46,278 nucleotides of DNA from a virus: the IMG/VR virus record IMGVR_UViG_3300027782_004013, positions 1 to 46,278 of that record, one strand, 5' to 3'. Numbering within the stretch: the first letter of the stretch is position 1; every line of letters starts with the position of its first letter. The notes under the pieces were generated by a model. It made no database searches and was not told where the DNA came from. It saw only the letters and a list, made by a program, of their open reading frames with translations. The position numbers and the translations under genes were made by a program. Shown here piece after piece: positions 9,496 through 46,224 of this stretch.

Positions 9496-9499
9496 GGGA

Positions 9500-9507
9500 T
9501 ATTTATA
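9500..9507 (-). promoter_or_regulatory. T4-type late promoter, leaderless spacing
   Basis: Perfect TATAAATA on the minus strand, four bases before the ATG at 9495. In T4 the late transcript starts about six bases past this motif, which places the RNA 5' end at the start codon. Confidence 0.7.
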
Positions 9508-9573
9508 TGAATGCAATCTCAACAAAATTAAAGTATATGTTAATGAAATTTATAAAAGCCCGTACCGGTTACA

Positions 9574-9581
9574 CATAAATA
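9574..9581 (+). promoter_or_regulatory. T4-type late promoter
   Basis: CATAAATA, 22 bases before the ATG at 9604, with a GGAG ribosome site at about 9592 between them. This is a conventional short leader. Confidence 0.6.
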
Positions 9582-9603
9582 ACAGTATCTTGGAGTAGTA
9601 AAT

Positions 9604-10011: not shown

Positions 10012-10065
10012 TATTTTAATAGATGCTATTTGAAAAATAAATTTATTGGCCGATTATAACATAAC

Positions 10066-11223: not shown

Positions 11224-11226
11224 AAA

Positions 11227-12534: not shown

Positions 12535-12602
12535 AAATAGACCTGAACATATATAAAATATATCATATCTACTTATATGATATAAAATATTAAGGAAAAA
12601 AA

Positions 12603-13217: not shown

Positions 13218-13544
13218 CAAGGGTTCGGTAATTTCTCCGGTGTCGCCGTCGATCACAAGCAATTTTATTTCGTGTTTGAAGGCTTCGGTTTCGAATCGAT
13301 TCCAGAACCATTTTTTCATTGGACTGTTTAGAGACTCTTCGAAATGCTTTTTACTTTCCCAAGTAGTAGTAATTTCCCAATTTTGATTTGTAAACACATT
13401 GTCAGTAGCACTGATAAATCCAGAAGGATTGACATTGTTTTTTTTCATAAGCTGTTGAAAAGATAATCCTTGGGTAGTTACTATTCGAAATCGTTCCATG
13501 TTTTCTGGACCTTCGCAGATTAGTTTATATTGTCTGGTATACAT
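13206..13544 (-). CDS. Small ABM-like protein
   Basis: A 112-residue protein. The segment NWEITTTWESKKHFEESLNSP, with a final acidic tail, fits a small dimeric ferredoxin-like (ABM) fold: strand, then a helix with a conserved phenylalanine. RBS ATAGGA precedes the start. The last 12 bases overlap the convergent GNAT-like gene. No catalytic assignment is possible. Such small proteins serve as monooxygenases, cyclases or haem chaperones in natural-product clusters. Confidence 0.55.
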   Translation of the reverse strand: MYTRQYKLICEGPENMERFRIVTTQGLSFQQLMKKNNVNPSGFISATDNVFTNQNWEITTTWESKKHFEESLNSPMKKWFWNRFETEAFKHEIKLLVIDGDTGEITEPLSLD

Positions 13545-13603
13545 TTACAATCATCCTATAATAGTGTTGTATTTAAATAAAATTTAAACACCTAAAATTT
13601 TTT

Positions 13604-13611
13604 TATAAATA
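13604..13611 (+). promoter_or_regulatory. T4-type late promoter
   Basis: Perfect TATAAATA, 22 bases before the ATG at 13634, with a GAAGGA ribosome site between. Confidence 0.75.
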
Positions 13612-13633
13612 TTTCTAACCGAAGGAATAGCAT

Positions 13634-13975
13634 ATGTACTATGGAAGAAGAACCATTATTCGATCAGACGATCTGAGTGATACACAAAAATTAAGAAAAT
13701 GGGTATTCTCATTAACAGAGCATTCGATGTACGGTACAATCGTATCAGACCTAATGTCGATGCCGGGATTTGTACACAAGTTATCGACTGTAAAAGAAAC
13801 AACGGCTGGTCAAGTTTTTATCAATGAAGTTTTGTTTAGCTCAAAAGATTCAGCCGATATGTACTTTAGCGATGAGGGCATACAGGCACTATGGGAATAT
13901 GTAAAAATTGCTGCAGAAGCAGAAGGATTTGCATTAGCTGACGATTACAGGATTGAATTGGATTCAATCGTCTAA
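13634..13975 (+). CDS. Small ABM-like protein
   Basis: A 113-residue protein with MPGFVHKLSTVKE, a central QVFINEVLFSSKDSADMYF strand-helix unit and an acidic C-terminus. It has the same general plan as the proteins at 9604 and 13206. It carries its own late promoter and RBS. The 3' end overlaps the convergent oxygenase gene by 12 bases. The function is unknown; the fold assignment is by pattern only. Confidence 0.55.
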   Translation: MYYGRRTIIRSDDLSDTQKLRKWVFSLTEHSMYGTIVSDLMSMPGFVHKLSTVKETTAGQVFINEVLFSSKDSADMYFSDEGIQALWEYVKIAAEAEGFALADDYRIELDSIV

Positions 13976-14503
13976 CAACAGACCGGGGTCAGGATTAAAG
14001 GACAATGTTAACGTTATCCTGGGAGACCTATTCTCGTCCATGATTACATTATGTCCTTCACTAATACGAACAATAGTGGGTTGGTTAATTTCTACCCGAT
14101 CAACTTCGATATAGTCACGATTAGTAGTGGCATAAAATGGTGCACCAGTAGGCAACATTAGCCTTTTAGATTGCACATTTTCGTAAAAAGTTGTCCAAGT
14201 TCCCTCACAGTTTAGCAATGGAATATTAATTCTCGCAATAGAATCAGTATAATCCTTGTGTGGTATTGAATCATAATTGTTCCACATTAAGTAAATGTTA
14301 GCATCCTCACAAAACAATCCAAGTTTAAAAAATGATTCTTGAATTTCAGGAACGTGTTCTAAGAAATTTAAATGTGTTAGATTAATAAACGGCCCTCGAT
14401 AATTTTTCTTATCAAAGAAGTTTGATTTAGATTCTAAAAACTCTAAACTCTTTTTAATAATGATATCTGTTTTATCAACTTGTATTCTTTTCCAGTATTG
14501 CAT
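13964..14503 (-). CDS. Putative 2-oxoglutarate/Fe(II)-type oxygenase
   Basis: A 179-residue protein. IPHKDYTDSIARINIPLLNCEGT contains an HxD pair, and SEGHNVIMDENRSPRITLTLSF gives the distal His and an Arg that would hold 2-oxoglutarate. This is the arrangement of small jelly-roll dioxygenases. The phrase NIPLLNCEGTWTTFYE recurs almost unchanged in the proteins at 21491 and 23927 (LPIINCEGTYTVWYD, NIPIYNCKDTTCDFYE), so these are paralogues. It is the third gene of a minus-strand set with 14510 and 15409. The substrate is unknown. Confidence 0.7.
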   Translation of the reverse strand: MQYWKRIQVDKTDIIIKKSLEFLESKSNFFDKKNYRGPFINLTHLNFLEHVPEIQESFFKLGLFCEDANIYLMWNNYDSIPHKDYTDSIARINIPLLNCEGTWTTFYENVQSKRLMLPTGAPFYATTNRDYIEVDRVEINQPTIVRISEGHNVIMDENRSPRITLTLSFNPDPGLLLDD

Positions 14504-14509
14504 AGTATC

Positions 14510-15412
14510 TTATAACTCTATTGTATAATTCAAATTGTTGGCATATTTGGAAATGCTGGCCGTTAGCAAAGAATCTAATTTCTTCGAGTGCCACATAGCG
14601 TTGACTATAATTTGATAACTAGTCTTACCGTGATAGTCAATACCATAGACTTGGGTGCCGTTACTCCAACAAAAGCTGTTGGTATCGTCTGGAAGATCAA
14701 TATATCGAGTTTCCCCCGTTTCTATGTCTGACACATATATTGTAGGTTGTGTGTTCTCATCGTACAGCATTATTCGAAACTCAGTTGGACATTTCCAGGC
14801 CCATGATTGTTCTCTATGAGGAACAATATCTTTTTTAGTTTCAACTATTAAAATATTCGACAGAGAATATATTGGGAATTGAAACATAATCTTAGAAATA
14901 AGATCAAAAAATATCTTATGCTTATATAACTTTTTACTAAAGGCACCAATCGGAGTACGACCTTGTATGTGTCCTGTTTTATTAGAAAACTGACTAGTAG
15001 TCATCACTCCGTTATTATATAAATCGTGTAGGTTAAAATCTATTAAACAACCTGATGTAATGTATAATCCATAGAACTCTGCAGAATCAAAAGATTCATT
15101 TGTTTTTGCAAGGTCTATCTTTTCTCTTTCCCAAATCTCTTTAAACTCATCGAAATTGTCAATTTTAAATTTTGGTAGGGCAAGAGGCAACCATTTAATT
15201 CCTTTAAATTTTTCTCCAAGATCAACCATATAAGTTTGATAGTAATCGGGTATCGGATAAGGTTTGGTCCACGATGCGTATGAAAATTTTCCGTTAGATT
15301 GCCTACAAGGTCCGAGTTTAGTTAAACTAGGATTCATTACAGTATTGTCGAACTGATTAACCTTCGCCTGTTCTCGTGCTAGATCAATTAGCTCTTGTTT
15401 GTTTTCTATCAT
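14510..15412 (-). CDS. Oxygenase-like paralogue with altered metal site
   Basis: A 300-residue homologue of the upstream gene, sharing WKCPTEFR, the MLxDENTQPTxYV strand and FCWSNG. Where the upstream copy has HRD, this one has HRE (PHREQSW). The distal histidine region reads QVYGIDYHGKTSYQ instead of SMHGSTYNGKRKF, so the distal His is replaced by Tyr. The 2-His-1-carboxylate facial triad is therefore probably broken or rewired. It may be a regulatory or non-catalytic partner. It overlaps the upstream gene by four bases. Confidence 0.65.
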   Translation of the reverse strand: MIENKQELIDLAREQAKVNQFDNTVMNPSLTKLGPCRQSNGKFSYASWTKPYPIPDYYQTYMVDLGEKFKGIKWLPLALPKFKIDNFDEFKEIWEREKIDLAKTNESFDSAEFYGLYITSGCLIDFNLHDLYNNGVMTTSQFSNKTGHIQGRTPIGAFSKKLYKHKIFFDLISKIMFQFPIYSLSNILIVETKKDIVPHREQSWAWKCPTEFRIMLYDENTQPTIYVSDIETGETRYIDLPDDTNSFCWSNGTQVYGIDYHGKTSYQIIVNAMWHSKKLDSLLTASISKYANNLNYTIEL

Positions 15413-16277: not shown

Positions 16278-17444
16278 TTAATATAATGATTCAAAAATAG
16301 CAATAGAGGTTCGACCACCGAACCCAAAACTAGCCTTCATAAAGATATTATTTTTTAACTCTACTGCTTCAGTGATTATCCTTGGATCGTCACTTAACGG
16401 ATTTGACAAATTATAATTAGGCTGTAGGTATCGATTTTTCACAGCTTCTAATCCATACGCAGATTCTATAAGTCCACAGGCACTCATAGTGTGTCCTAAG
16501 TACCCTTTGAATGACACTATAGGAATATTAATGTTTTCAAACACACGTTGAAACACATCTAGTTCAATGTCGTCACCGATTAATGTACTAGTAGCGTGTG
16601 AATTAAAAAAAGAAATATCATGTGCAGATAACTCAGCTTGAGTTAATGCTTGATTTATTATCTTGATTTGATGTTCACAAGACGGATCGTGGGCAGTCAT
16701 ACTAGTTACTTTGGCACCACTGGCTATTGATCTCAATTTGGCTCTAGGTGTTAGATTATGCGTTTTTAAAGTTTCTTCATCGCAGATATACCAAAGTGTG
16801 CCGCCTTCGCCTTGTAAAAATCCATCTCTGTTTTTATCAAATGGTTTACATTGTCCTCCATCCTCTGTAGAGATGGCACTGGTACATTGCCAATAATATT
16901 GTAACGTAGCAAACAGTGGCATATCAACTGCTCCAACAAGAGCAGCAGATGTTTGGCCAGTTTGTATTAACATCGCGGCAAATTGTAGATTGAACATGCT
17001 GCTAGAGCATGCTGCATTTAAACTGGTATTGATACCTTCTAGTTTTAACTTAGAGGATATTATAGCACTGAGCAAATCATGATTAGCACTGAATAATTTT
17101 GTAGGACTAAATCTTCTCTGCTGTGACGAGAACGCCCGTGTAAACTCTTCTTTTACCGCAGCACCGATTCCGAATGACCCGTAAATCACAGCAGTGTCCT
17201 TGGGCATAGAATGCCTGCTAGACATCTCATTTATCAGATCTAACACTAGACGAAATGGAGTATAGCTGTTGTCCACATAGTTCATGTGGAATCCCTTGGT
17301 GCTCATTACATGAGGAAATTCTTCTGTATTATATCGTTTTATGGTTTCAGCTCCAGGAGTAGCTGCCATATTTTTATAATTTTCTTTTATCTGTACTCCG
17401 AGACAATCTCTAACCTGGTAGTCTACGATATAAACATCTTTCAT
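16278..17444 (-). CDS. Beta-ketoacyl-ACP synthase (KAS, FabF-like)
   Basis: A 388-residue condensing enzyme. The catalytic triad is intact: C146 in NAACSSSM, H283 in NSHATSTLIGDD, H318 in GYLGHTMSACG, with the C-terminal GFGG loop. It would condense an acyl primer with malonyl-ACP by decarboxylation. The protein is slightly shorter than E. coli FabF, and its N-terminus is divergent, closer in feel to the KAS proteins of dedicated natural-product clusters than to housekeeping FabF (judgement, not a search). The start overlaps the ACP stop (ATGA), coupling it to its carrier protein. Confidence 0.93.
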   Translation of the reverse strand: MKDVYIVDYQVRDCLGVQIKENYKNMAATPGAETIKRYNTEEFPHVMSTKGFHMNYVDNSYTPFRLVLDLINEMSSRHSMPKDTAVIYGSFGIGAAVKEEFTRAFSSQQRRFSPTKLFSANHDLLSAIISSKLKLEGINTSLNAACSSSMFNLQFAAMLIQTGQTSAALVGAVDMPLFATLQYYWQCTSAISTEDGGQCKPFDKNRDGFLQGEGGTLWYICDEETLKTHNLTPRAKLRSIASGAKVTSMTAHDPSCEHQIKIINQALTQAELSAHDISFFNSHATSTLIGDDIELDVFQRVFENINIPIVSFKGYLGHTMSACGLIESAYGLEAVKNRYLQPNYNLSNPLSDDPRIITEAVELKNNIFMKASFGFGGRTSIAIFESLY

Positions 17445-17809
17445 TTTTTCAACATCTTTGAGGGATCCTGGCTATCTGTGATGTATCCTATTAGATCTTT
17501 CCATTTCAATAGTGTGGCAATTTCTTTGTCATCAATCACACAACCAAATTCTTCTTCGATCTGTATTACCAATTCCAAGATGTCAATACTATCAACCTCG
17601 TTGTTTTTACGCCTTGCTTGGGCTATAGATTCTGGAAGTGATTCTAATTCCTTAGCCAGTTCTTCGTCGTTGAGAATTTTTAGGTCCTTGATGCTCATGT
17701 CTGGCGGAAGTGGGTATGTCAATTCTAATTTGAGATAATCGTTGATCATTTCGATCAATCGGTGCTCAACTTGTTCTTCATTCCTTGGGGTCCAAGATTC
17801 CGTTGTCAT
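17441..17809 (-). CDS. Acyl carrier protein with N-terminal extension
   Basis: A 122-residue protein. EVDSIDILELVIQIEEEFG around residue 74 is the ACP signature; S74 is the expected phosphopantetheine attachment site. Normal ACPs are about 78 residues. Here some 40 extra N-terminal residues precede the four-helix core, which could dock a specific partner. RBS GGAGA precedes the ATG, and TGTAAATA lies just upstream. It sits between FabZ and KAS in one operon. Activation would need a phosphopantetheinyl transferase, and one is encoded at 31160. Confidence 0.88.
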   Translation of the reverse strand: MTTESWTPRNEEQVEHRLIEMINDYLKLELTYPLPPDMSIKDLKILNDEELAKELESLPESIAQARRKNNEVDSIDILELVIQIEEEFGCVIDDKEIATLLKWKDLIGYITDSQDPSKMLKK

Positions 17810-17829: not shown

Positions 17830-17837
17830 TATTTACA
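17830..17837 (-). promoter_or_regulatory. T4-type late promoter (one mismatch)
   Basis: TGTAAATA on the minus strand, 20 bases before the ACP start, overlapping the end of FabZ. It would allow ACP and KAS to be transcribed late, separately from FabZ. Confidence 0.5.
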
Positions 17838-18294
17838 TAGATATGCCGGCCACTGCTTTTAATTTTCCGTGGCTAACTGTGATATTATCTACTGAGGCTG
17901 ATGCATCAAATTCAAAAATCTTTCTTGCACGTCTAGTTAATCGAGTGTGTATTACTAGTTGATCGCCGGGAACAACTACTTTCTTAAATCTTACTTGATC
18001 TGCGGCGGTAAAAAGAATGCCGCCTTGAATGAATTCATGTAGTAGGTCATTGTTTTGTAGATATTTGAAAGCCAATACCGTACTAGCCTGTGCCATAGCT
18101 TCGATCATCATAACACCGGGCATTATGTGATTCCCAGGAAAATGTCCTTGTACATAGGGTTCATTAACAGTGAAATTTTTAATCGCTGTAAGAGTACTTT
18201 CATCATAGTCTAAAACTCGATCTATCATCAAAAAAGGATAACGATGAGGCAATATGTCTAACAGTTCAGCGGAGGTGATCGTTTTCATATTCAT
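17833..18294 (-). CDS. fabZ: 3-hydroxyacyl-ACP dehydratase FabZ
   Basis: A 153-residue hot-dog-fold dehydratase with LPHRYPFLMIDRV, the catalytic loop QGHFPGNHIMPGV and the following EAMAQ glutamate. It removes water from 3-hydroxyacyl-ACP to give trans-2-enoyl-ACP. The length is normal for FabZ. An ATG 15 bases upstream overlaps the TATAAT box of the minus-strand promoter and is probably not used. From 18294 the transcript would begin at or next to the ATG. It is first in the FabZ-ACP-KAS operon. No ketoreductase or enoyl reductase is present in the window. Confidence 0.93.
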   Translation of the reverse strand: MNMKTITSAELLDILPHRYPFLMIDRVLDYDESTLTAIKNFTVNEPYVQGHFPGNHIMPGVMMIEAMAQASTVLAFKYLQNNDLLHEFIQGGILFTAADQVRFKKVVVPGDQLVIHTRLTRRARKIFEFDASASVDNITVSHGKLKAVAGISM

Positions 18295-18300
18295 ACTTAT

Positions 18301-18328
18301 ATTATACACTTATTTCAAGAAAAAACAA
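18301..18328 (-). promoter_or_regulatory. Sigma70-type promoter for FabZ, leaderless spacing
   Basis: On the minus strand TTGTTT, 16 bases, then TATAAT; the ATG at 18294 follows the -10 box by six bases. The RNA should start at the start codon. Confidence 0.6.
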
Positions 18329-18365: not shown

Positions 18366-19253
18366 ATGCAACTATTACATAATAACTATACACAGACATT
18401 CGGTCATGGACCTACCTGGAGTATACAAATACACACATCACAAACCGAGCCCCGTGATTTTTTTACCGAAAGCAAAAGAGCTGCCGAACTAATCTGGAGT
18501 GCTAAACAAGGGATCGTACATGTAATGTACAGTGGTGGAGTAGATAGCGAATATACATTGAAGTTATTTCACAGTTTAGGCATGTCTGTGATTCCAGTTA
18601 TCATAAAACTAAATCCTTCATACAATGACCACGATATCAAATATGCCATTGATTTTTGTGAAGCGCATGGATTGACTCCATTAATAATAGATATTGATTT
18701 TGATGAATTCGTGAGGTCTGGAAAAATTATAGATATTGCCGAATCTGTTCAGCTATGTGTGTATCAGTATGCTGCAACTTTATATGCCACTGCAAATATC
18801 GACGGCACAGTAATATGCAATATAGGTGAGCCTAGTGTAAGACTAGATTCCAACACCAAACAATGGTCTGTGATTTTCGATGAATACAATTATGTGTTTC
18901 CTAAATATTGGCAAACACATGGCGTAATAGGCACACCATTCTTCAATACTTATACTCCAGAGATGATGTTTGCTTTTATCAGCGATCCTAGAGTAAATGA
19001 TTTAGTCAACTTTCGTGTGCCCGGTAAACAAGGACATCAATCCAGCAAATGGCTGATTTATAATAGACACAGCGGATTTAATCATTGCGAAAGACCAAAG
19101 TATCACGGATACGAACACATTGAACATAGTGCGATTGGCAAACATGCGAATATTCTAGCATTTGAAGAATTCAAAACCCAATGGAATGGACAGGTGACTC
19201 AAGAATATCATACCTTTATATCAAAAATCAAAGACCCTGTAATTTCATTGTAA
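18366..19253 (+). CDS. PP-loop (N-type ATP pyrophosphatase) protein
   Basis: A 295-residue protein. VMYSGGVDSEYTL near residues 55-67 is the SGGxDS PP-loop that binds ATP for adenylation, as in asparagine synthetase, ExsB/QueC and tRNA thiolases. There are no zinc-binding cysteine clusters like those of QueC, and no glutaminase domain. Its C-terminal region is rich in His and aromatic residues (KYHGYEHIEH). It could activate a carboxylate for amide or thiolester formation. It is divergent from the FabZ operon, so a role in finishing the acyl product is possible but speculative. Confidence 0.78.
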   Translation: MQLLHNNYTQTFGHGPTWSIQIHTSQTEPRDFFTESKRAAELIWSAKQGIVHVMYSGGVDSEYTLKLFHSLGMSVIPVIIKLNPSYNDHDIKYAIDFCEAHGLTPLIIDIDFDEFVRSGKIIDIAESVQLCVYQYAATLYATANIDGTVICNIGEPSVRLDSNTKQWSVIFDEYNYVFPKYWQTHGVIGTPFFNTYTPEMMFAFISDPRVNDLVNFRVPGKQGHQSSKWLIYNRHSGFNHCERPKYHGYEHIEHSAIGKHANILAFEEFKTQWNGQVTQEYHTFISKIKDPVISL

Positions 19254-24845: not shown

Positions 24846-27563
24846 ATGAACTCAAAAAAACTTTTACCCAAATTACTGTTATCGGCAATACTAACAGTTT
24901 ATTCATTTAGTTATGCTCAAAATTTAAAAACAGTTGGACATCCTGCCATGGAGAGTCCACATGTTAACCCAATCTCCCTGTGCGGTAATTATGTTTATGT
25001 AACGAACACTCCGGCTGGAACAGTTGATGTAATTGATCGCAAAACTCAAAAGATCTTTACACGAATTAATGTTGGGGTTGATCCAGTTAGTATTGCAGTT
25101 CGACCCGATGGCAAAGAAATATGGGTGTCTAATCATGTATCAGACTCTGTTAGTGTTATCGACTCTGACCCGAAAAGCCCAACGTTTCATATTGTTGTTG
25201 CTACAATACAAGAGTTTAATCATCGTAAGGCTACTTTATTCGATGAGCCGGTTGGTATAGCATTTGCCAGCAACAGTAAGGCATATGTTGCGCTATCATC
25301 AGAACGGCAAATTGCTGTAGTTGATGTAAAGACAAGAAAGGTAATAGATCGTTTAGAAATTAGAGCACAGGATCCCAGAGCTATTTTTGTTCAAGGAGAT
25401 CGACTCTATGTTATTCCTTTTGAATCTGGAAATAAGACTCAATTGTCTGGAGGCTACAAGCAAAATATAGATGGAAACCTAGTTACCTTTGATGCATACG
25501 AACACTCTGTTAAAAACAATAACGCACTTTCTTTAGGATACGTTTCGGATATTGTAAAACATCCAAGGCAACCGGATAAAGATTTATTTGTTTTTGATAC
25601 AAAAACAGATAGACAAATTAAGATTGTAGAAACATTGGGTACCTTGCTCTACGGATTAACTGTGGATTCAAAAGGACGTATCTTTATCGCTCAAACAGAT
25701 GCACAAAATGATGCTAACGGTCGGGCAGGTACCAAGAAACACGGTCTTGCTGAACTACAAAATAGACCGTACCTAAATCAAATCACCAGTGTACAATTCA
25801 ACGACAGCAGAGTAGATAAGAAATTTCTAAACTTAGAACCACTACCTCCTGCCAATCCTACCAAGGATCAAGCACTGTCTACCCCATACGCTATACAAAT
25901 ATCTGATGACGATTCTATAATTATATCCTCGGCTTCAGCATCAGATAAAATTTTTGCACTGGATTCTCGAAGTGGAGAAATTTTAAGTCAGGTAACTGTG
26001 GGTGCAGGTCCTAGAGGCATTGCTCTTGAAAAAGGTAAATTATCTAAAGCATGGATTTATAATGCTTTAGATAATACTGTAATGTTGCTTGATGTATCTA
26101 ACACAACAGATATTAAATTAAGCACAACAATATCTTTAGAAGATCCTACACACGCCACTGTTAAGCGTGGACGTATTGCCTTTAATTCAGCAATGGCAAG
26201 TTCAACTGGTACCTTCTCTTGTGCTAGTTGTCATCCTAACGGACATTCTGATCAACTACTATGGGTACTAGATACTCCTATTGTTTCTGGCGGCAAACAA
26301 ATCATGCCACGACTATCAATGCCAGTTCGGGGACTTAGAGATACAGAACCATACCACTGGGACGGAACCAAAGGCGATCCATACGGCGGTATTAATAGTG
26401 CAAATTTGTTTTTTCCTGCTTCTTCTAATTGTAAAATAAACAATCCTATAAGTTGTCTAAGACAATTAATTGATGATAATCTAGCTACGACTATGAGTTT
26501 AGTATCTAAGGATAAACAAAGAGGCGCTTTAACCGAAGATGAACGTAACGATATGGCAGTATATCTGTTGAGCATTCCATATCCGCCTGCACCAAAAAGA
26601 CCCTATACGAATATACTCACTAATGAGGCACGGCAAGGATTTTCATTGTTTCATGTTGAAGGTGATAACGATCCGAAGTTTAATCAGCCTGTGGTATGTG
26701 GTAACTGTCACCGATTACCCTTTCTTTCTAGTGCAGGTACGATAGCTCCTCGCACTGGTATGAAGGCAACCACTTGGCGCGGTGCATACGACCGTTATCT
26801 AATTAGTCCACAGGCACGGGGCATGATAATAGATTTTCCTTGGATATCGGCGATAGCAGAAAAAGGAAGAGATGAAAGAAGCACCTGGCAATTAACTTGG
26901 AGTGGCAGCACTGGACCAAGACATAGATTTAATCCAGTATGGGACATGGTCTTAGAAGGCAGTACAGGATTTTCAGGAACATTTGCTAGACAGGTGACAG
27001 TGTCTTCGGATGATTTAAAAGACCACCATGATGATGATTTAATTTCTGCAATGGAGAATGCCGCAGGACAAGGCGCAGTGGTACTAGAAATCGATGGAAT
27101 ATTCTTAGACGACATAAAAGCAAAAAGGATTGAACTACAATACGTTACCGGTGTATACGTTGACAAGTCTAATAAAAAATCTTACACAAAAAATGAACTA
27201 TTACAACTAGCATCACAGGAAAAATTTGTTGGAACTTTTACAGCAAGACACGGAGTCAACGCAGATGTTGATAGTCCGCAACCAGCATTGTGGTCATTAG
27301 GGGCAATTCATGATCAACGTAAACAAGACTTTCCAACTGTTACTACTAGACGTCTTAGTATGACTATTAGCGGCCGTCATTTTAAAGACGATGCTCAAAT
27401 ATTTGTAGATGGTGTGCGTGTTAACGGTGCTGTTAGTGTTAAAAGCAATGAAAAAGTAGTAATTACTCTGGCCAATGCACCGACCGCAGGTATGCACTTG
27501 CTACAGGTACAAGTACCAGATGGAATGTTCAGTAACGACTTTATATTCTACGTTAAAGAATAA
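24846..27563 (+). CDS. Exported beta-propeller di-haem c-type protein (YncE/MauG-like) with IPT-like domain
   Basis: A 905-residue protein. Residues 1-24 form a signal peptide (basic start, hydrophobic LLLSAILTVYSF, cleavage after SYA). Residues 40-440 contain repeated beta-propeller strands (VDVIDRKTQKIF, VSVIDSDP, IAVVDVKTRKVI), as in YncE-type proteins. Two CxxCH haem c sites, C459-H463 (CASCH) and C618-H622 (CGNCH), resemble the di-haem cytochrome c peroxidase/MauG layout. The C-terminus (ISGRHFKDDAQIFVDG) resembles an IPT/TIG domain. It should act in the periplasm or at the surface and depends on host haem attachment. Such a protein is most unexpected in a phage. It has its own promoter. 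Confidence 0.85.
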   Translation: MNSKKLLPKLLLSAILTVYSFSYAQNLKTVGHPAMESPHVNPISLCGNYVYVTNTPAGTVDVIDRKTQKIFTRINVGVDPVSIAVRPDGKEIWVSNHVSDSVSVIDSDPKSPTFHIVVATIQEFNHRKATLFDEPVGIAFASNSKAYVALSSERQIAVVDVKTRKVIDRLEIRAQDPRAIFVQGDRLYVIPFESGNKTQLSGGYKQNIDGNLVTFDAYEHSVKNNNALSLGYVSDIVKHPRQPDKDLFVFDTKTDRQIKIVETLGTLLYGLTVDSKGRIFIAQTDAQNDANGRAGTKKHGLAELQNRPYLNQITSVQFNDSRVDKKFLNLEPLPPANPTKDQALSTPYAIQISDDDSIIISSASASDKIFALDSRSGEILSQVTVGAGPRGIALEKGKLSKAWIYNALDNTVMLLDVSNTTDIKLSTTISLEDPTHATVKRGRIAFNSAMASSTGTFSCASCHPNGHSDQLLWVLDTPIVSGGKQIMPRLSMPVRGLRDTEPYHWDGTKGDPYGGINSANLFFPASSNCKINNPISCLRQLIDDNLATTMSLVSKDKQRGALTEDERNDMAVYLLSIPYPPAPKRPYTNILTNEARQGFSLFHVEGDNDPKFNQPVVCGNCHRLPFLSSAGTIAPRTGMKATTWRGAYDRYLISPQARGMIIDFPWISAIAEKGRDERSTWQLTWSGSTGPRHRFNPVWDMVLEGSTGFSGTFARQVTVSSDDLKDHHDDDLISAMENAAGQGAVVLEIDGIFLDDIKAKRIELQYVTGVYVDKSNKKSYTKNELLQLASQEKFVGTFTARHGVNADVDSPQPALWSLGAIHDQRKQDFPTVTTRRLSMTISGRHFKDDAQIFVDGVRVNGAVSVKSNEKVVITLANAPTAGMHLLQVQVPDGMFSNDFIFYVKE

Positions 27564-30481: not shown

Positions 30482-30489
30482 TATTTATT
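30482..30489 (-). promoter_or_regulatory. T4-type late promoter
   Basis: AATAAATA on the minus strand, 21 bases before the ATG at 30460, with an AAGGA ribosome site between. Confidence 0.55.
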
Positions 30490-31093
30490 GCGTAATACCA
30501 TATTCTTCTAACCCCCAGGCCCTTTCTCTGCAACCATTACACACACCGCAGGGCTGAAGTTCGACGTTCTGCTGATCGCAACTGTTGGTATACTGTAATA
30601 ATTCTTGTATTCCCATTTTAAAATATAGATCAATTACATGCCGTTTTGTGAGATTTTTAAGAGGGTATCCTATTCCTAAAATTTCAGGAACTTGTATAAC
30701 TGTTATACCAACAGCATGTTGTGATTGTACCTCTATAATACCCAAATACACATATTCAAAACCCAGTATTGTAAACGCCTGTCTCACTGCTGATTCTACC
30801 TGTTGATGCGCTGGTAGAGATAGATCACCCAATCTCATAGGCAGCAGATCATGCTCAAACAATGCATTTACCTTGTTGACCATTAGCTTAGTCACGTGAT
30901 GATCGGCTGGGCGCTGTATGATTATAGGTTGAATTGTATGTGACGAATTATTTCTGTACTTGAAATACAGTAAAAGATAGTATAACAATACACTGTCTAT
31001 ACCGCCACTGACTAAAACTCCAATCTTGCTCACAGAGGGTAACACTAGATCAAGTGTTCGAATATCGTTGTCCGGGCCGCATTGAATTTTCAT
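30485..31093 (-). CDS. queC: QueC-like 7-cyano-7-deazaguanine synthase
   Basis: A 202-residue protein with the PP-loop LVSGGIDSVLLYY near residues 28-40 and a C-terminal zinc-type cluster: NSCDQQ followed by CGVCNGCRER. These are the two hallmarks of QueC, which converts 7-carboxy-7-deazaguanine to preQ0. With the QueD-like gene at 41654 it points to 7-deazaguanine in phage DNA or tRNA. It is somewhat shorter than cellular QueC. A GATAAATA late motif precedes it. Confidence 0.8.
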   Translation of the reverse strand: MKIQCGPDNDIRTLDLVLPSVSKIGVLVSGGIDSVLLYYLLLYFKYRNNSSHTIQPIIIQRPADHHVTKLMVNKVNALFEHDLLPMRLGDLSLPAHQQVESAVRQAFTILGFEYVYLGIIEVQSQHAVGITVIQVPEILGIGYPLKNLTKRHVIDLYFKMGIQELLQYTNSCDQQNVELQPCGVCNGCRERAWGLEEYGITQ

Positions 31094-31119: not shown

Positions 31120-31159
31120 GTGATTTATGCTCGGTGAGACTAAACGAGATAACTACTGT

Positions 31160-31534
31160 ATGATCATAGGCACAGGCATCGACATAGTGGATCTTAGAAG
31201 GTTTCACGACATGGATTCTGATAGATTAAATCGTCTGGCTAAGAGGATACTTACCGACGACGAATTTGTTGAGTTCCAACAACTAGATAAAGTCAAACAT
31301 TCTGTGCATCTCGCCAAAATATGGAGCATAAAAGAATCCATAGGCAAGGCATTCGGCACAGGAATATCCAACGATAGTGTATGGAAAAACATGCGGATTT
31401 ACAAAAACGCATTAGGACAGCCTCAGGTACAGTTTCTAGGTGCATTGGCAAGAAAAACTGTAATCTGTCATATCAGCGTTAGCCACGATGGCGACTATCT
31501 AGTATCTAATGCTGTATTAGATCATGTACATTGA
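31160..31534 (+). CDS. acpS: Holo-ACP synthase AcpS (4'-phosphopantetheinyl transferase)
   Basis: A 124-residue protein. IGTGIDIVDLRRF (the Mg-binding aspartate), KRILTDDEFVEF and KIWSIKESIGKAFGTGI (the catalytic WxxKEAxxKA-type helix) are the AcpS signatures in order. AcpS transfers phosphopantetheine from CoA to the serine of ACP. The start at 31160 gives the usual AcpS N-terminus; an upstream in-frame ATG would add 11 residues. It overlaps the next gene by 11 bases. With two ACPs encoded in the window, the phage appears to activate its own carrier proteins. Confidence 0.92.
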   Translation: MIIGTGIDIVDLRRFHDMDSDRLNRLAKRILTDDEFVEFQQLDKVKHSVHLAKIWSIKESIGKAFGTGISNDSVWKNMRIYKNALGQPQVQFLGALARKTVICHISVSHDGDYLVSNAVLDHVH

Positions 31535-32072
31535 AATTTGGATTCCGGGAACGGACGCAGAGTTAGACAAGTTATTTGAACAATTACGAATTCAACAACA
31601 CAGCGATATCACGCATCCCCTGTATAAAAATTATTCTGCTCAGGACTTCAAATCATGTGCTGCATTGTCTATTACTTTTGACAACAACGATCCTATTGTT
31701 GCCAGCAGTATTTTGGCTAGAACATGCTGGCCCAAAAACACCTACAGGATATTAAACAGATTTTGGAAGGTGCACGAACATAGACTCACAGCTCTTGACA
31801 GATCTACCAAGGCTACAGCACTGTCTGAGACAGCCAAGGCGCATGTAGCGTATGCTGAAAACACATTGGAAGCTGATCTAGTGTTTATGAGCAGACAATA
31901 TGATCATTGGCAAAATCTAGCTGTGCATTACCTAAAAGAAAAAACAGGAATAGAATTTAAATACGACAACTATCGATATCTCGTCTGCGATAATTCTCAA
32001 GATCAAACCTGCTGGCAGAGAATAGCCTACAAAGGTGATGAACAACTTTTAACACAATGGCAAAAACAATGA
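31524..32072 (+). CDS. Hypothetical protein in the AcpS-desaturase operon
   Basis: A 182-residue protein. The segments NDPIVASSILARTCWPKNTYRILNR and a later VAYAENTLEADLVFMSRQ suggest an alpha/beta acyltransferase-like core, but no GNAT nucleotide loop is clear, so no function is assigned. It overlaps AcpS by 11 bases and the desaturase by four (ATGA at 32069), so it is translationally tied to both. Confidence 0.65.
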   Translation: MYIEIWIPGTDAELDKLFEQLRIQQHSDITHPLYKNYSAQDFKSCAALSITFDNNDPIVASSILARTCWPKNTYRILNRFWKVHEHRLTALDRSTKATALSETAKAHVAYAENTLEADLVFMSRQYDHWQNLAVHYLKEKTGIEFKYDNYRYLVCDNSQDQTCWQRIAYKGDEQLLTQWQKQ

Positions 32073-32860
32073 AAGAAATACTCTTAGGTATGATAAGAAT
32101 GTACAGTATTATGCCAGTGCTTGCAGTTGGCTTGTATTCGATATTCTCGATAATTATCGGAACAGCTCCCGGTTGGTGGTGGTGGGCAACAGTGTCAGGC
32201 TATGTTTGTATTATGATGTTGGGAGTGAGCGCAGGTTATCATAGACTACTGAGCCATAGAGCATTCCAGGTGCATCCTTGGACGAAATCTCTGTTGTTAT
32301 GGTTCGCCGCACTGTCATGCCAAGGCAGTCCGATCTTTTGGACTACCATACACAGAGGATATCATCATAGGTATACAGATCAATCAAAAGATCCGCACAG
32401 CCCACAACAGGGATTTTGGCACAGCTATATTTTATGGATGTTTAAAATACGCACAGGAGATCACAACACCAAATTTGTTGTGGACATACTCAAAGATCCT
32501 ATCTGCGTGTTTTTCCATAAGTATTACAATCATATAATCTGGATTAGTCATATCGGTATTGCTGCGATCAGTGTGGACTTATGGTTGTATGCTGTGATAT
32601 TACCTGCATTTATAACCATAAACAGTTTTGCTCTAACAAATACTCTCACACATTTGCCTCACCTCGGTTATAAGAATCATGCCACTAACAATCATGGTGT
32701 GAATATAAGCTGGCTGTTTCCTATAGTACTGGGAGAAGCATGGCACAATAACCATCACGCAGATGCAAAAAATCCTTGTTTGGGCAAACGTTGGTGGGAG
32801 ATCGATCCCACCTATTGGTTGATCAGATTAATTCGCACTGATCAATCTTTGAATCCCTGA
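32069..32860 (+). CDS. Membrane fatty-acid desaturase, copy 3
   Basis: A 263-residue desaturase with histidine boxes HRLLSHRAF, HRGYHHRYTDQSKDPHSP and WHNNHHADAKN, and hydrophobic helices around residues 15-50 and 155-195. The boxes are closest in wording to copy 1 at 4278. The ATGA overlap with the preceding gene favours 32069 over the ATG 12 bases upstream. Its 3' end overlaps the convergent ACP gene by 33 bases. Confidence 0.93.
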   Translation: MKEILLGMIRMYSIMPVLAVGLYSIFSIIIGTAPGWWWWATVSGYVCIMMLGVSAGYHRLLSHRAFQVHPWTKSLLLWFAALSCQGSPIFWTTIHRGYHHRYTDQSKDPHSPQQGFWHSYILWMFKIRTGDHNTKFVVDILKDPICVFFHKYYNHIIWISHIGIAAISVDLWLYAVILPAFITINSFALTNTLTHLPHLGYKNHATNNHGVNISWLFPIVLGEAWHNNHHADAKNPCLGKRWWEIDPTYWLIRLIRTDQSLNP

Positions 32861-33073
32861 GTACAAATCACCCACAGTCCTGGCTGCTTGAGTTTCGGGA
32901 TGATCCATGTCAATTTCGATACCAAATTCATCTTCACAGGCTACCACTAGTTCCGTGAAACTGAGACTGTCTAGTCTGAGATCGTCTTTGAGGGTGAGGT
33001 CTAAACCAACGGGGATATTGGGTTTATGTAATTTTAAGATTATAGCAAATAGTCTTTGTTGGGTATCATTCAT
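32828..33073 (-). CDS. Acyl carrier protein, second copy
   Basis: An 81-residue protein of normal ACP length. LRLDSLSFTELVVACEDEFGIEI carries the DSL motif whose serine takes phosphopantetheine. It is quite different from the 122-residue ACP at 17441, so the two probably serve different partners. It is convergent with, and overlaps, desaturase 3. The late motif ATTAAATA lies four bases before its ATG, giving a leaderless message. Confidence 0.9.
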   Translation of the reverse strand: MNDTQQRLFAIILKLHKPNIPVGLDLTLKDDLRLDSLSFTELVVACEDEFGIEIDMDHPETQAARTVGDLYSGIQRLISAN

Positions 33074-33130: not shown

Positions 33131-33242
33131 ATGGTCGTGAGCAAATTGGCAAAGCTCCCGCCTAGCCCACAGCTAGGAAAGGGGACGGGACGATGAGTAT
33201 AACTCGCAGTCTTTGTAGGTTCAAGTCCTACCGACCATACCA
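33131..33242 (+). tRNA. Aberrant tRNA or tRNA-like RNA with large insert
   Basis: Acceptor ATGGTCG/CGACCAT, T-arm GTAGG-TTCAAGT-CCTAC and encoded CCA are all normal, and a D-arm-like GAGC/GCTC is present. The middle is far too long (112 nt in total). A CCTAG/CTAGG hairpin with loop CCCACAG would read CAC (Val) with C33, but it is offset from the canonical position and enclosed by CCCG/CGGG. A second GAGT/ACTC hairpin follows. It may be a tRNA with an insertion, a long-arm tRNA of undetermined identity, or a tRNA mimic. Confidence 0.5.
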
Positions 33243-41653: not shown

Positions 41654-42178
41654 ATGGCAAAATATCTTTCTACAAAAACTTACGGCAACGACAGAGGTCT
41701 ATCATGCTGTTTTAGACAATGGCGTAGTACGCATTCACATTGCTCACTGCTACACGGATACTCAATTGGTATCAAATTAATTTTCGAATCAGAAACATTA
41801 GACGACCGCAATTGGGTCATGGACTTTGGTGGACTCAAAGCATTTAAAGAGTGGAGTGAATATATGTTTGATCACACACTAGTTATTGCTGAAGACGATC
41901 CCCACAGAGAAATGTTTGAAAATATGGCTAAGTTAGGGAAACAGGCCGAAGGCGGTGTCTGCGATATTCGCATCGTTGAAGGTGTGGGCTGTGAAAAATT
42001 TGCCGAACTTGCTTATAAAGAAATGGCCACTATACTACATATCTTTAAAAATGGCAATACCTACTATTGTCCGAATGGTAAACTTCATGATGCTAGATAT
42101 CCTGTAGGGCAAGGCGTTAAGTTGCGTTCAGTAGAAGTATTTGAACATGCTGGTAATTCAGCTACCTACGAAGGATAA
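41654..42178 (+). CDS. queD: QueD-like 6-pyruvoyl-/6-carboxy-tetrahydropterin synthase
   Basis: A 174-residue protein of the PTPS fold. [12 protein letters not shown] supplies zinc-binding histidines, and MDFGGLK, FDHTLV and [13 protein letters not shown] are the conserved QueD/PTPS blocks. QueD makes 6-carboxytetrahydropterin, the precursor of 7-deazaguanines, completed later by QueC (a homologue is at 30485). The 3' end lies next to the KdsA start region. RBS AAGGAG is at 41641. Confidence 0.85.
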
Positions 42179-42187
42179 TGTTCTACG

Positions 42188-42195
42188 CATAAATA
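42188..42195 (+). promoter_or_regulatory. T4-type late promoter, leaderless spacing
   Basis: CATAAATA, five bases before the KdsA ATG at 42201. Confidence 0.6.
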
Positions 42196-42200
42196 ATAAT

Positions 42201-43046
42201 ATGCGCACATTTAATATCAATCGTATTCAAGCCAGCAACTACAATAAGTTATTTCTTATAGCTGGCCCTTGTCAAATTGAAAGCCAAGCCCATGCCGAGT
42301 TCACTGCAGGTTCTATCAAAGAAATCTGTGATGAACTTAATATTGGTCTCGTTTACAAAAGCAGTTTTGACAAGGCTAATCGTAGCAGTCTCGGCACCCA
42401 GAGAGGTGTAGGTATAGACCAAGGATTGGCCATATTAAACTCGATCAAACATCAGTTCGGGGTGCCAGTTCTAACTGACATTCATGAAAGTTATCAGGCA
42501 GAACTGTGTGCTACAGCTGGCATTGATGTCATACAGATACCTGCTTTCTTATGCAGACAAACTGATCTATTGCTGGCTGCTGGAGAAACAGGATGTACTA
42601 TCAATGTCAAGAAAGGACAGTTCCTTGCTCCCCACGATATGAAAAATGTTGCGGCAAAGATTGCTTCAACTGGTAATGAACGCATTATGTTATGCGAAAG
42701 GGGATACACTCATGGATATAATAATCTCGTTGTGGATATGCGCAGTCTACCCATTATGGCAAGCACCGGATATCCAGTGGTCTTTGATGCCACGCATAGT
42801 GTTCAACAACCTGGCGGATTGGGGTCGAAGTCAGGAGGCGATAGGACCATGGTCCCATACCTGGCGAGGGCTGCTGTAGCCACAGGATGTGTTGCTGGAA
42901 TATTTGTAGAAACACACGAAGATCCGGATGCAGCACCCAGTGACGGTCCGAACATGATCAAACTGTCAGAACTGAAATCATTATTAACAGACTTGGTAGC
43001 CATAGATGGAATTGTCAAAAGAACAACGTCAACAAGCCAAGGCTGA
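42201..43046 (+). CDS. kdsA: 3-deoxy-8-phosphooctulonate synthase (Kdo-8-P synthase)
   Basis: A 281-residue TIM-barrel enzyme, the length of bacterial Kds[54 protein letters not shown] and [11 protein letters not shown] are all KdsA-specific. It condenses PEP with arabinose-5-phosphate to make the Kdo precursor of LPS. ATG at 42201 restores the normal N-terminus; upstream in-frame ATGs lie within the QueD-like gene. Its end overlaps the glycosyltransferase by 41 bases. Confidence 0.95.
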
Positions 43047-43821
43047 AAAGAGAGCTGCCAAAATGGCGGCACGTGGAGAATATGCAGATCAAACACCTGT
43101 AATGGTGTCTGTGAATCCCAGTGATCCCATCACTGTACTGTGTGTAAGATTCGGTAACAAGTATGGCCGTGAATATGTAGAACGACTACGCAACATGGTG
43201 TCAAGACATCTCACTGTGCCTTATGAATTTGCCTGCCTCACTGACGATCAACACGACATCGCAGGAGTGCGTAAAATATATCAACCAAATGCCAACTATG
43301 CAAGAGGATGGTGGCACAAGGTTCACATGTTTGATTCTACCCTGCCTCTCAAAGGCAGGATACTGTACATGGATCTCGATGTGGTCATACATGCTAACAT
43401 AGACAAACTTGCAGGATATCACAGCAACAGTTTCATAGGCATACACGATTTCAACAGAAAATTTTTTCCTAGTTGGAACTACCTCAACAGCTCAGTATTA
43501 GCATGGACTCACGGTACACAGAGTCATATCTACGATCAGTTCAAACTCAAACCATCAGAAGCTCAGCGCCTGCAGGGTGATCAAGATTGGATATGGAAAC
43601 TCTGCAAAGATCGAATGAAGTTTTGGCCTCGAGAATGGATACAGAGCTACAAATGGGAAATACGCAGCAGAGACGAACTAACTGTAGTTCAATCAAGAAG
43701 ACAGTTCAAAACAGTTCGAGACGATATACGACCCCCTCTAGACTGTAGTATAGCGGTGTTCCACGGGGAACCAAACCCGCAGGACGTTCAGGATAAATTT
43801 GTCGTTGACAACTGGCAGTGA
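43006..43821 (+). CDS. Glycosyltransferase, GT-A type (GT8-like)
   Basis: A 271-residue protein. A basic N-terminal helix ([18 protein letters not shown]) precedes the GT-A core. [11 protein letters not shown] and [12 protein letters not shown] contain the DxD-type metal and nucleotide-sugar motif, and later GDQDWIWKL fits the acceptor side. It overlaps KdsA by 41 bases, suggesting a joint role in LPS or glycan remodelling (inference). The sugar donor and acceptor are unknown. Confidence 0.8.
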
Positions 43822-43833
43822 TGATGTTATACT
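43805..43833 (+). promoter_or_regulatory. Sigma70-type promoter, leaderless spacing
   Basis: TTGACA, 17 bases, TATACT with TG just upstream. The ATG at 43840 follows the -10 box by six bases. It overlaps the end of the glycosyltransferase gene. Confidence 0.7.
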
Positions 43834-43839
43834 TGTAGT

Positions 43840-44070
43840 ATGACATTTACCACACATCAAAGTCAAGTTCGTACAATCAAACGAGGCGATCCCCGTTTTC
43901 GTATTGTTGACAAAGTTATAACCTGTGATAGAGCAGGATTCGAAATTTCAAAAAGTTGTCCACGCGAGTACAGTTTGATACTATCCGAATGTATCGATCG
44001 AGGTTGGATCCAACCTGTGGCCTATATGACAGAACGTGAACTTCTTATTTCAGGATTGGCTAGAGAGTGA
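43840..44070 (+). CDS. Small hypothetical protein
   Basis: A 76-residue basic protein (SQVRTIKRGDPRFRIVDK). It is probably translated from a leaderless transcript of the promoter at 43805. No family is recognised. The stop is one base before the next start. Confidence 0.6.
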   Translation: MTFTTHQSQVRTIKRGDPRFRIVDKVITCDRAGFEISKSCPREYSLILSECIDRGWIQPVAYMTERELLISGLARE

Positions 44071-44071
44071 T

Positions 44072-44257
44072 ATGAATATTCCATACTCTGATAACGAATG
44101 CCGTAAAAAATTACAAGATCTATACGAAGGTCGTACTTTGATTATACCGGCCGATCTTGACCACGCTTATCAAATGATGAATCTATCAATGATGTATATC
44201 AGAGACGACCAACACCGAGTAATGAGTTATTTAAAACAGGATACTGTAAATGGTTAA
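44072..44257 (+). CDS. Small hypothetical protein
   Basis: A 61-residue helical protein (SDNECRKKLQDLYEGRTL), starting one base after the previous stop with a GAGAG ribosome site. It overlaps UvdE by eight bases. The function is unknown. Confidence 0.6.
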   Translation: MNIPYSDNECRKKLQDLYEGRTLIIPADLDHAYQMMNLSMMYIRDDQHRVMSYLKQDTVNG

Positions 44258-45311
44258 ACGCATAGGCTTTGCCTGCAAATGGATCGACGGACCCAGTCAG
44301 ATCAACGGTGTCAAACAAAAAGATAATTGCAAACAGTACAACACTGGCAGTACCACAGTGGCGTGGTTGAAACGTCAAGAACCCAAAGTAGCAGAACAGA
44401 AGCTGTGGGATCTAATGGTACAGAATATTGAATCAATTCGTAAACTTGTAGAGAAAGTAGGAGGTCTAGATGACGAACTTCGTATGGTACGTCTTGGCAG
44501 CGATATTCTGCCTGTATACACTGAGCGTAATTACAGCTGGTTTTGGCGTCAAGCTGATGTGGTCAACTATGCCGAAACACATTTTGCCGAGGTGGGGCGT
44601 ATTGCTAGAGATCGCAATGTTCGCCTTAGTTTTCACCCTGGTCAGTTCACTGTGTTGGCATCTGATAATCCCGATATTGTTGATCGTAGCATAGAGGAGT
44701 TTGAATATCATGTGGACATGGCTCGTTGGATGGGGTATGGTAAAACGTTTCAAGACTTTAAGATCAATGTGCATATCGCTGGCCGACAAGGCCCGCCCGG
44801 TATCCGCAGTGCTTTGGCACGGATGAGCCCAGAGGCTCGCAACTGTCTCACCATCGAGAATGATGAAATGACCTGGGGTATAGAGCACAGCATTGAACTA
44901 GTCAAAGACTGTGCATTAGTCTTAGACATTCATCATCACTGGATTAAAACTGGAGAATATATTGAACCTACTGACGACCGTGTTAAAAGGATTATTGATA
45001 GTTGGCGTGGTGTGCGTTCTGTGTTACATTATAGTGTATCACGGGAAGACTGTCTTATTGAGCATCCCGGACACATCCGCCCCGATCTTCCGTCCCTCTT
45101 AGAACTCGGATACAAGAAAGCAAAACTCAGAGCTCATTCAAACTTCTACTGGAACACAGCCGTAAATGAGTGGGCGTTAGCTTTCAGAGACCAATTTGAT
45201 ATCATGTGCGAAAGCAAGGCCAAGAACTTGGCCTCATTTGCTCTCCGCGACCAAGACAAAACTGTTAAACAGTTTTTGGCTTGCGAGGAGCCTTTGCTGT
45301 TGCTGTCTTAA
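44250..45311 (+). CDS. uvsE: UV damage endonuclease UvdE/UvsE
   Basis: A 353-residue TIM-barrel nuclease. RMVRLGSDILP, RLSFHPGQF, INVHIAGRQG, LTIENDE, LDIHHHWI and LRAHSNFYW are the conserved strand-end motifs carrying the metal-binding His and Glu residues. It nicks DNA 5' to UV photoproducts. Useful to a phage exposed to sunlight; fits a surface-water habitat (inference). The C-terminus overlaps the convergent membrane protein gene by 47 bases. Confidence 0.93.
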   Translation: MVKRIGFACKWIDGPSQINGVKQKDNCKQYNTGSTTVAWLKRQEPKVAEQKLWDLMVQNIESIRKLVEKVGGLDDELRMVRLGSDILPVYTERNYSWFWRQADVVNYAETHFAEVGRIARDRNVRLSFHPGQFTVLASDNPDIVDRSIEEFEYHVDMARWMGYGKTFQDFKINVHIAGRQGPPGIRSALARMSPEARNCLTIENDEMTWGIEHSIELVKDCALVLDIHHHWIKTGEYIEPTDDRVKRIIDSWRGVRSVLHYSVSREDCLIEHPGHIRPDLPSLLELGYKKAKLRAHSNFYWNTAVNEWALAFRDQFDIMCESKAKNLASFALRDQDKTVKQFLACEEPLLLLS

Positions 45312-45624
45312 CCGCAGTGGCTTTAGCTGGTGCTCGTTTGACTTTGGCTACTGCCTTTGCTTTGTTTTCAGCAGTAGCATCTGCTGCTGTTGGAGCAGGT
45401 GTTTCTACTCGATCTTCACTGCCCGAAACATCAGACACTTTGACATGAATGTTTCCTTCGGACAATTTTTCACCAAACGGCCATTCTTTTTCTGTTGACA
45501 CTGCTTGTTTAGGTGGTTGCCAATTGTCGATGGTCTGATCAGATTCTGTTTTTTTGGTTTTTACATAACCACTCCACAACAGGGCCGCAACCACAACAAC
45601 TGCTACAAAAATAATAATTTCCAT
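45265..45624 (-). CDS. Membrane-anchored protein with Ala/Lys-rich tail
   Basis: A 119-residue protein. One N-terminal transmembrane helix (IIIFVAVVVVAALLW) is followed by an acidic linker and a C-terminal Ala/Lys/Pro tail (KAVAKVKRAPAKATAVKTATAK) like histone H1 or AlgP tails. The tail is probably cytoplasmic and may bind nucleic acid near the membrane (inference). RBS AGGAGA precedes the ATG. It is convergent with UvdE. Confidence 0.7.
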   Translation of the reverse strand: MEIIIFVAVVVVAALLWSGYVKTKKTESDQTIDNWQPPKQAVSTEKEWPFGEKLSEGNIHVKVSDVSGSEDRVETPAPTAADATAENKAKAVAKVKRAPAKATAVKTATAKAPRKPKTV

Positions 45625-45653
45625 GTGTAAATCTCCTTAGGAATTTATTTAGC

Positions 45654-45661
45654 GGTAAATA
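45654..45661 (+). promoter_or_regulatory. T4-type late promoter, leaderless spacing
   Basis: GGTAAATA (two mismatches), five bases before the ATG at 45667. No Shine-Dalgarno sequence fits. Confidence 0.5.
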
Positions 45662-45666
45662 CAAGC

Positions 45667-46224
45667 ATGGCATACAATTTTATACAAAAATTCATAGTTG
45701 AGGGTCGCAAAGACAAACTAATCCAGCTGACTCTTCCTTATGCCGATGATGAGCTTGCACCAGTAAAAAGCAAAGAAACCATAGATTATCACTACGGAAC
45801 ACTGTACAAAGGCTATGTTGATCGATACAACAAGAATGAAGGTGATGACAATTTCAACGAAGCTGGTGCGTTTTTACATAATATCTATTTTGGTCAACTG
45901 CAAAAACCAGAAGGAACCAACAGACCCTATGATGCTAGTTTGGCATTTATAGAAAAACATTATGATACTTTTGACCGTTTCAAAGAAGAATTTGAAAAAA
46001 CAGCCATGAAGATACAGGGCAGCGGATGGGCATACTTGGCTCGTGATGGCAAGATCAAGACTATTGTGAATCACGAAATAAGAAATGATATTGTGCTGTT
46101 GATTGATTGGTGGGAACATGCCTGGGCTTTGGACTATCAAGCTGATAAAAAAAGTTATCTAACCAACATATGGAAGATAATAAACTGGAGAATAATCAAT
46201 GGCGTACTCGGACAAAGTAATTGA
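45667..46224 (+). CDS. sod: Fe/Mn superoxide dismutase
   Basis: A 185-residue protein. LPYADDELAPVKSKETIDYHYG holds the first metal His, FLHNIYFGQ the second, and LLIDWWEHAWALDYQ the Asp/His pair; GSGWAYLARDGKI is the conserved core. It is slightly short, with an unusual N-terminal extension (FIQKFIVEGRKDKL). It removes superoxide. In the last bases it overlaps the IscU start by 26 bases, so the two are co-transcribed. Whether Fe or Mn is used cannot be told. Confidence 0.92.
   Translation: MAYNFIQKFIVEGRKDKLIQLTLPYADDELAPVKSKETIDYHYGTLYKGYVDRYNKNEGDDNFNEAGAFLHNIYFGQLQKPEGTNRPYDASLAFIEKHYDTFDRFKEEFEKTAMKIQGSGWAYLARDGKIKTIVNHEIRNDIVLLIDWWEHAWALDYQADKKSYLTNIWKIINWRIINGVLGQSN

Follow-up and report, generated by a model that had tools for sequence, protein, structure and literature searches.

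The region 31160-33073 of a 46,278-bp IMG/VR virus record (the whole of this stretch was analysed, and is called the window below) is probably the loading end of a phage-encoded acyl-carrier pathway, with a holo-ACP synthase (AcpS) acting as its dedicated in-cluster phosphopantetheinyl transferase (PPTase). Because the phages carry their own AcpS near two acyl carrier proteins (ACPs) and acyl enzymes, and because this set is kept together in giant phages, they appear to run a private, partly host-insulated fatty-acyl assembly line. The window also carries 19 tRNA genes (ARAGORN), 17 of which lie within its first 4.3 kb.

The ORF encoding AcpS spans 31127-31534 on the + strand, and the start used by homologues is the ATG at 31160, giving a protein of 124 aa (31160-31534). 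The protein matches Pfam ACPS at 1e-16 and scores above the curated cut-off of NCBIfam acpS TIGR00516 (76.5 versus 59.8 bits), and the B. subtilis AcpS structures 1f80 and 1f7l align to it with an E of 5e-14. The AcpS that the initial annotation had placed here is thus intact. We looked for active-site substitutions and found none; the Mg-binding Asp/Glu, the catalytic Lys and the SH motif (D8, E59, K63 and S108-H109) are kept in 16/16 full-length phage AcpS, the window counted (this number, like the 14 used for ACP2 and the 10 used for ACP1, KAS and FabZ below, includes near-duplicate rows). R14 is present in all 16 and both R22 and R29 in 15 of the 16, and these positions line up with arginines of B. 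subtilis AcpS that we take to be those docking the ACP in the 1f80 complex. In length, catalytic residues and most of the docking arginines, the phage protein therefore equals the bacterial TIGR00516 and B. subtilis AcpS. Unlike them, however, it is encoded by a phage and adjoins GNAT and desaturase genes instead of a housekeeping locus, and it falls under the cut-offs of lineage-specific AcpS equivalogs. Judged by its sequence and setting, it is best read as a dedicated in-cluster PPTase for the phage ACPs.

Four genes make up the region, in the order AcpS (+), a 182-aa gene (+), a desaturase (+) and ACP2 (-). The initial annotation had listed AcpS, the desaturase and the ACP correctly but omitted the 182-aa gene (31524-32072). 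This gene shares 11 bp with AcpS at one end and 16 bp with the desaturase at the other, an arrangement like that of a co-translated operon. Overlapping or abutting ends of AcpS, GNAT and desaturase genes recur across lineages, as does the tail-to-tail layout of ACP2 and the desaturase (a 33-bp overlap in the window). The membrane fatty-acid desaturase (32057-32860) exceeds the PF00487 gathering score (54.8 versus 29.7 bits; 1.5e-14) and has three conserved His boxes (H62/H67, H99/H103/H104 and H230/H233/H234). It had been called the third desaturase, rightly so, since two more, belonging to the wider island, are encoded at 4278-5036 (+; desaturase 1) and 5033-5797 (+; desaturase 2, NF049918 at 2.7e-20, under its cut-off). 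ACP2 (32828-33073, 81 aa) exceeds the PF00550 gathering score (34.3 versus 20.8 bits; 2.9e-8) and carries Ser36 in a DSL motif found in 14/14 sequences, some rows being near-duplicates; it is indeed the second ACP, ACP1 lying at 17441-17809. Just upstream of ACP2 is a tRNA-like sequence (33131-33242, +) that folds to -38 kcal/mol; neither ARAGORN at default settings nor Rfam at its gathering score gave a call, and with introns allowed ARAGORN reads it as tRNA-Pro(agg) with a 16-base insert. The T4 late promoter TATAAATA was not enriched across the window (3 seen versus 4.8 expected).

The other carrier protein belongs to a cassette on the - strand, consisting of a FabF-like beta-ketoacyl-ACP synthase (KAS, 16278-17444; PF00109/PF02801 at about 1e-20), ACP1 (17441-17809, 122 aa; PF00550 at 2.4e-4, just above the gathering score at 21.7 versus 20.8 bits) and a FabZ dehydratase (17833-18309). 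Active sites are preserved throughout: KAS Cys146-His283-Lys313-His318, which fits an elongating beta-ketoacyl synthase (Cys-His-His plus Lys), the ACP1 DSI motif with Ser74 (some rows again near-duplicates) and the FabZ catalytic H56 and E70 are each invariant in 10/10 sequences. FabZ passes the curated cut-off of NF000582 (154.9 versus 113 bits) and narrowly misses that of TIGR01750 (149.7 versus 155.15). KAS misses the cut-off of the FabF KAS II equivalog TIGR03150 (159.8 versus 493.75 bits), and both phage ACPs miss that of housekeeping AcpP, TIGR00517 (34.8 and 31.8 versus 70.45 bits). Most window ORFs of at least 100 aa were looked at, and none of these was recognised as a ketoreductase or an enoyl reductase; the cycle would therefore depend on the host. 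The distance between FabZ and AcpS is 12.8 kb, in agreement with the 13 kb given earlier between the two loci, but the conclusion drawn from it, that the pathway is split across the genome, holds for this contig only. In all nine other records with both genes (six lineages) the gap is 52-2,535 bp, the genes lying on opposite strands, and the whole KAS/ACP1/FabZ cassette is within 2.6 kb of AcpS. The split is a trait of the window's lineage, because its relative G004 has the same gene order as the window from 19598 up to AcpS.

Relatives were found by scans with AcpS, GNAT and KAS, and the records were then searched with profile HMMs; all are metagenomic and most are fragments. The same AcpS occurs in 16 further virus records (G004 is cut off inside the gene), and five more records have distant AcpS homologues. 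By gene identity and gene order they group into lineages: the window with G001 and G004; G002 with G005; G008; G009; G010; G011 with G012; G019 with G020; G003 with G007; and G013-G015. The AcpS contigs of G003 (355 kb) and G011 (365 kb) also carry genes for a Gp23-type capsid protein and terminase, which identifies these AcpS carriers as large T4-like phages. The window and most relatives are fragments with no recognised capsid or terminase genes, as would be expected of host contamination or mis-binned bacterial DNA in a virus record; we consider this very improbable, however, given the two long contigs with Gp23 and terminase and the tail-fibre-like gene that immediately adjoins the end of the cluster in G003 and G007. 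Furthermore, the sole bacterial-genome match of the GNAT gene is a 3.5-kb MAG contig bearing only the GNAT-desaturase pair, without AcpS, and a bacterial source for the 182-aa gene was not adopted on this one contig. The isolate-phage database held no convincing AcpS homologue and only weak desaturase matches; the AcpS matches there were confined to unannotated Listeria, Staphylococcus and faecal records (24-39% identity), in which we suspect host DNA, and were set aside. Two distant phage lineages pair AcpS with KAS, namely G022 (AcpS, ACP and KAS) and G018. The latter, a distant T4-like phage (131-kb record with Gp23 and terminase; locus L111), has AcpS, a desaturase, KAS and, by eye, a FabI-like ORF at 8756-15153, possibly an independent acyl set.

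Since AcpS would load the ACPs, as the initial annotation proposed, the two genes should travel together. We scored co-occurrence by HMMs in all loci found through the GNAT gene, thereby avoiding sampling on AcpS, with dereplication at 90% GNAT identity (31 loci) and up to 10 kb of flank per side. AcpS and an ACP were found together in 13 loci, AcpS alone in none, an ACP alone in one and neither in 17 (Fisher p = 7e-8, a value that ignores phylogeny, and the ACP profiles may miss divergent ACPs). For AcpS and KAS the corresponding numbers were 8, 5, 0 and 18 (p = 1.6e-4, likewise ignoring phylogeny). In L147, one of the 13 loci, the AcpS-like gene is short and divergent (99 aa, 22 bits). It precedes a different ACP (GDSLD motif) at 14025-14577, with two extra desaturases alongside, and this pair looks like a separate acquisition. 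The single exception, L164 (4757-7860), has an ACP (GLDSLD) with no AcpS within 10 kb, sitting between a 476-aa ORF, which by eye resembles the radical SAM proteins of the window, and a 468-aa unknown. The 17 loci with neither gene indicate that in those phages GNAT and desaturase can function with no ACP of the phage's own. With about half of the GNAT loci in this class, the GNAT-desaturase pair forms a core to which the AcpS-ACP module has been added, or from which it has been lost.

The two ACPs, which had been noted to differ, belong to distinct families that are kept separately. Among the 16 records with full AcpS, ACP2 is present in 14 and ACP1 in 10, ACP2 thus being the more constant partner of AcpS and ACP1 the second. 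Neither alone explains AcpS, since some records (G003, which is 355 kb long, G007 and G013-G015) keep AcpS and ACP2 with no KAS, ACP1 or FabZ in the record, and others (G019 and G020) keep AcpS and ACP1 without ACP2. The simplest inference is that AcpS would act on both ACPs where both exist. In a rough mirror-tree test, pairwise identities of AcpS showed only weak correlation with those of the neighbouring genes (rho -0.06 to 0.17), and the test was dropped as support; the modules are therefore reshuffled, and co-adaptation of AcpS to a single ACP is not required. The records with AcpS and ACP2 but no KAS and FabZ would also be explained by a takeover device, in which host lipid synthesis would be starved because AcpS and surplus phage ACP draw CoA as well as malonyl and acyl groups away from host ACP. 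This is improbable, because AcpS never stands alone in the window's family, where the GNAT gene is always close to it and AcpS together with ACP2 has a desaturase nearby, and because the active sites of KAS and FabZ are preserved. Purifying selection acts on the acyl-module genes, as pairwise dN/dS values of 0.02-0.17 among close relatives show; together with the matches at curated scores and the 38-60% identity to distant relatives, this excludes chance.

The wider island contains enzymes of other kinds. Next to the KAS/ACP1/FabZ cassette is a PP-loop ATPase gene (18366-19253, +) that adjoins FabZ and AcpS in most relatives, and the AlphaFold2 model of its product (pLDDT 80.5) resembles, by Foldseek, beta-lactam, carbapenam and asparagine synthetases and LarE. 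A QueC-like PP-loop protein (30485-31093, -; PF06508 at 4.2e-9) is encoded by the divergent neighbour of AcpS in the window, G001 and G004, and its gene is beside or near that of desaturase 1 in G003, G007 and G008. Two radical SAM enzymes are encoded at 5799-7304 (-; PF04055 at 7.6e-8, with a weak match of the N-terminus to B12-binding PF02310) and 7301-8743 (-; PF04055 at 4.8e-7), and in some relatives Rieske proteins, SDRs and a fatty acid hydroxylase are encoded as well. Such company is more than fatty-acid synthesis alone would call for and may point to a specialised acyl product. A ladderane-type lipid cluster was considered and rejected, the first radical SAM protein scoring 51.6 against a cut-off of 360 for the lipid radical SAM family TIGR04072.

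Several further genes were noted. A DUF3050/haem-oxygenase-like protein (8743-9525, -; 7e-77) adjoins the radical SAM pair, and a UbiB/ABC1-type atypical kinase (11227-12612, -; 7.6e-74) is also found in the islands of G009, G011, G012, G019 and G020. A 905-aa ORF (24846-27563, +) has a signal-like N-terminus, a beta-propeller, weak similarity to di-haem cytochrome c peroxidase and a 70% identical homologue in G009. The stretch 41654-46224 encodes a 6-pyruvoyl-tetrahydropterin synthase (QueD-like), a DAHP/KDO8P synthase family protein, UvdE and an Fe/Mn superoxide dismutase. In loci L142, L015 and L161, several tandem PP-loop homologues adjoin the GNAT-desaturase pair.

The 182-aa protein (31524-32072, +) is a putative acyltransferase. 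Its AlphaFold2 model, built from a nine-sequence alignment, has a mean pLDDT of 90.4, and its best PDB matches (Foldseek, VIA-align) are all GNATs, with Z up to 11.7 over 142 residues, which supports a GNAT fold; the modelled fold does not single out a donor or an acceptor. Enzymes using acyl-ACP or acyl-CoA are among the matches (LasI, Z 10.2; FeeM and TofI, both 9.7; RpaI, 9.6), but equal or higher scores are reached by generic GNATs that use CoA (1xeb, 11.7; ElaA, 11.1), and no Pfam match to the LuxI or FeeM families was obtained at E 0.01. The protein thus shares the GNAT fold with the LuxI/FeeM acyl-ACP N-acyltransferases but differs from them in having no sequence-family match, and we did not assign it to either family. 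The isolate-phage database gave no match to it at E<=1. FeeM is partnered with a cluster ACP. By the same logic, the product of the cluster could be an N-acyl amino acid or N-acyl amine, for which the GNAT would receive an unsaturated acyl chain from ACP2, a proposal that we hold only tentatively. The position of the GNAT gene between AcpS and the desaturase, the acyl-ACP users LasI, TofI and FeeM among its structural matches, and the likeness of the neighbouring PP-loop protein to amide-forming synthetases all favour such a product. Against it stand the scores of the CoA GNATs, the missing LuxI or FeeM family match and the many GNAT loci with no recognised ACP.

A plainer reading is that these are ordinary membrane and fatty-acid auxiliary genes with no special product, boosting host type-II synthesis and membrane unsaturation, where AcpS would raise the supply of holo-ACP and the desaturases would alter membrane fluidity. 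KAS, FabZ and ACP are standard parts of FASII, and precedents exist. Cyanophages reportedly have lipid desaturases, as Roitman et al. are said to have described in 2018; the window shares phage membrane desaturases with them, although theirs are said to be single genes that come with neither a private carrier protein nor a PPTase. The pelagimyophages of Ca. Fonsibacter, which are freshwater myophages, carry fabF and a stearoyl-CoA desaturase, and so share with the window the combination of KAS and desaturase. In the passage describing them, however, there is no mention of AcpS, an ACP pair, GNAT or FabZ, and the freshwater genomes it covers are without radical SAM genes (PMC7029224). Predicted Rhodobacteraceae prophages carry fabG-acpP-fabF, again with an ACP and a KAS; that set, however, copies the order of the bacterial fab operon and includes fabG, and no AcpS, desaturase or GNAT is mentioned with it (PMC8224337). 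Phage desaturases, fabF and acpP are already known (PMC7029224 and PMC8224337). We nevertheless find the auxiliary reading rather unlikely: the phage ACPs and KAS fall under the housekeeping equivalog cut-offs given above, FASII does not need GNAT, radical SAM, Rieske or PP-loop proteins, and an AcpS of the phage's own would add little to a mere boost of host fatty-acid synthesis. Three of the proteins also resemble those of cispentacin, AmcB being the top NCBIfam match of ACP2 while KAS and FabZ match AmcF and AmcE, but all three are under cut-off (43.6 versus 80, 126 versus 325 and 81 versus 140 bits, respectively). A search of the open-access literature turned up no paper on a phage AcpS or on a cluster of the present kind; priority cannot be claimed on this search.

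The private pathway, in which the enzymatic activities, the pairing of AcpS with each ACP, the order of steps, the acceptor and the product are all inferred, would run as follows. AcpS would move 4'-phosphopantetheine from CoA onto the DSL or DSI serine of the phage ACPs, its substrates being the adjoining ACP2 and probably also ACP1 of the KAS/FabZ cassette. KAS would then extend acyl groups on holo-ACP and FabZ would dehydrate the hydroxyacyl intermediates, with keto- and enoyl-reduction coming from the host or, in some relatives, from phage SDRs. The membrane desaturases would introduce double bonds, and the 182-aa GNAT, probably co-expressed with AcpS, may pass the completed acyl chain on to an acceptor, possibly an amine. 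Cluster-encoded PPTases secure carrier activation in some natural-product clusters of bacteria. The in-cluster AcpS could likewise secure it during infection and, as first suggested in the initial annotation, would make the phage independent of the host enzyme.

The lipid genes of phages have so far figured in the literature as isolated auxiliary genes, each supplementing a pathway of the host. The retention of a private AcpS together with phage ACPs suggests instead a carrier-protein pathway that is in part shielded from the host and follows the logic of natural-product clusters. We regard the set as a case of phage auxiliary metabolism and possibly as a phage biosynthetic gene cluster. It is conceivable, if still somewhat short of probable, that large T4-like phages carry a modular biosynthetic cluster, with its own PPTase and carriers, making a phage-specific acylated molecule or lipid. 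As a part of this reading, and with the same reserve, the product might be, for example, an unsaturated N-acyl amide serving, in the course of infection, in signalling, membrane remodelling or host control. Whether infection yields a new lipid or acylated metabolite becomes a directly testable question, and the AcpS-ACP2-GNAT-desaturase set is small enough for reconstitution in E. coli.
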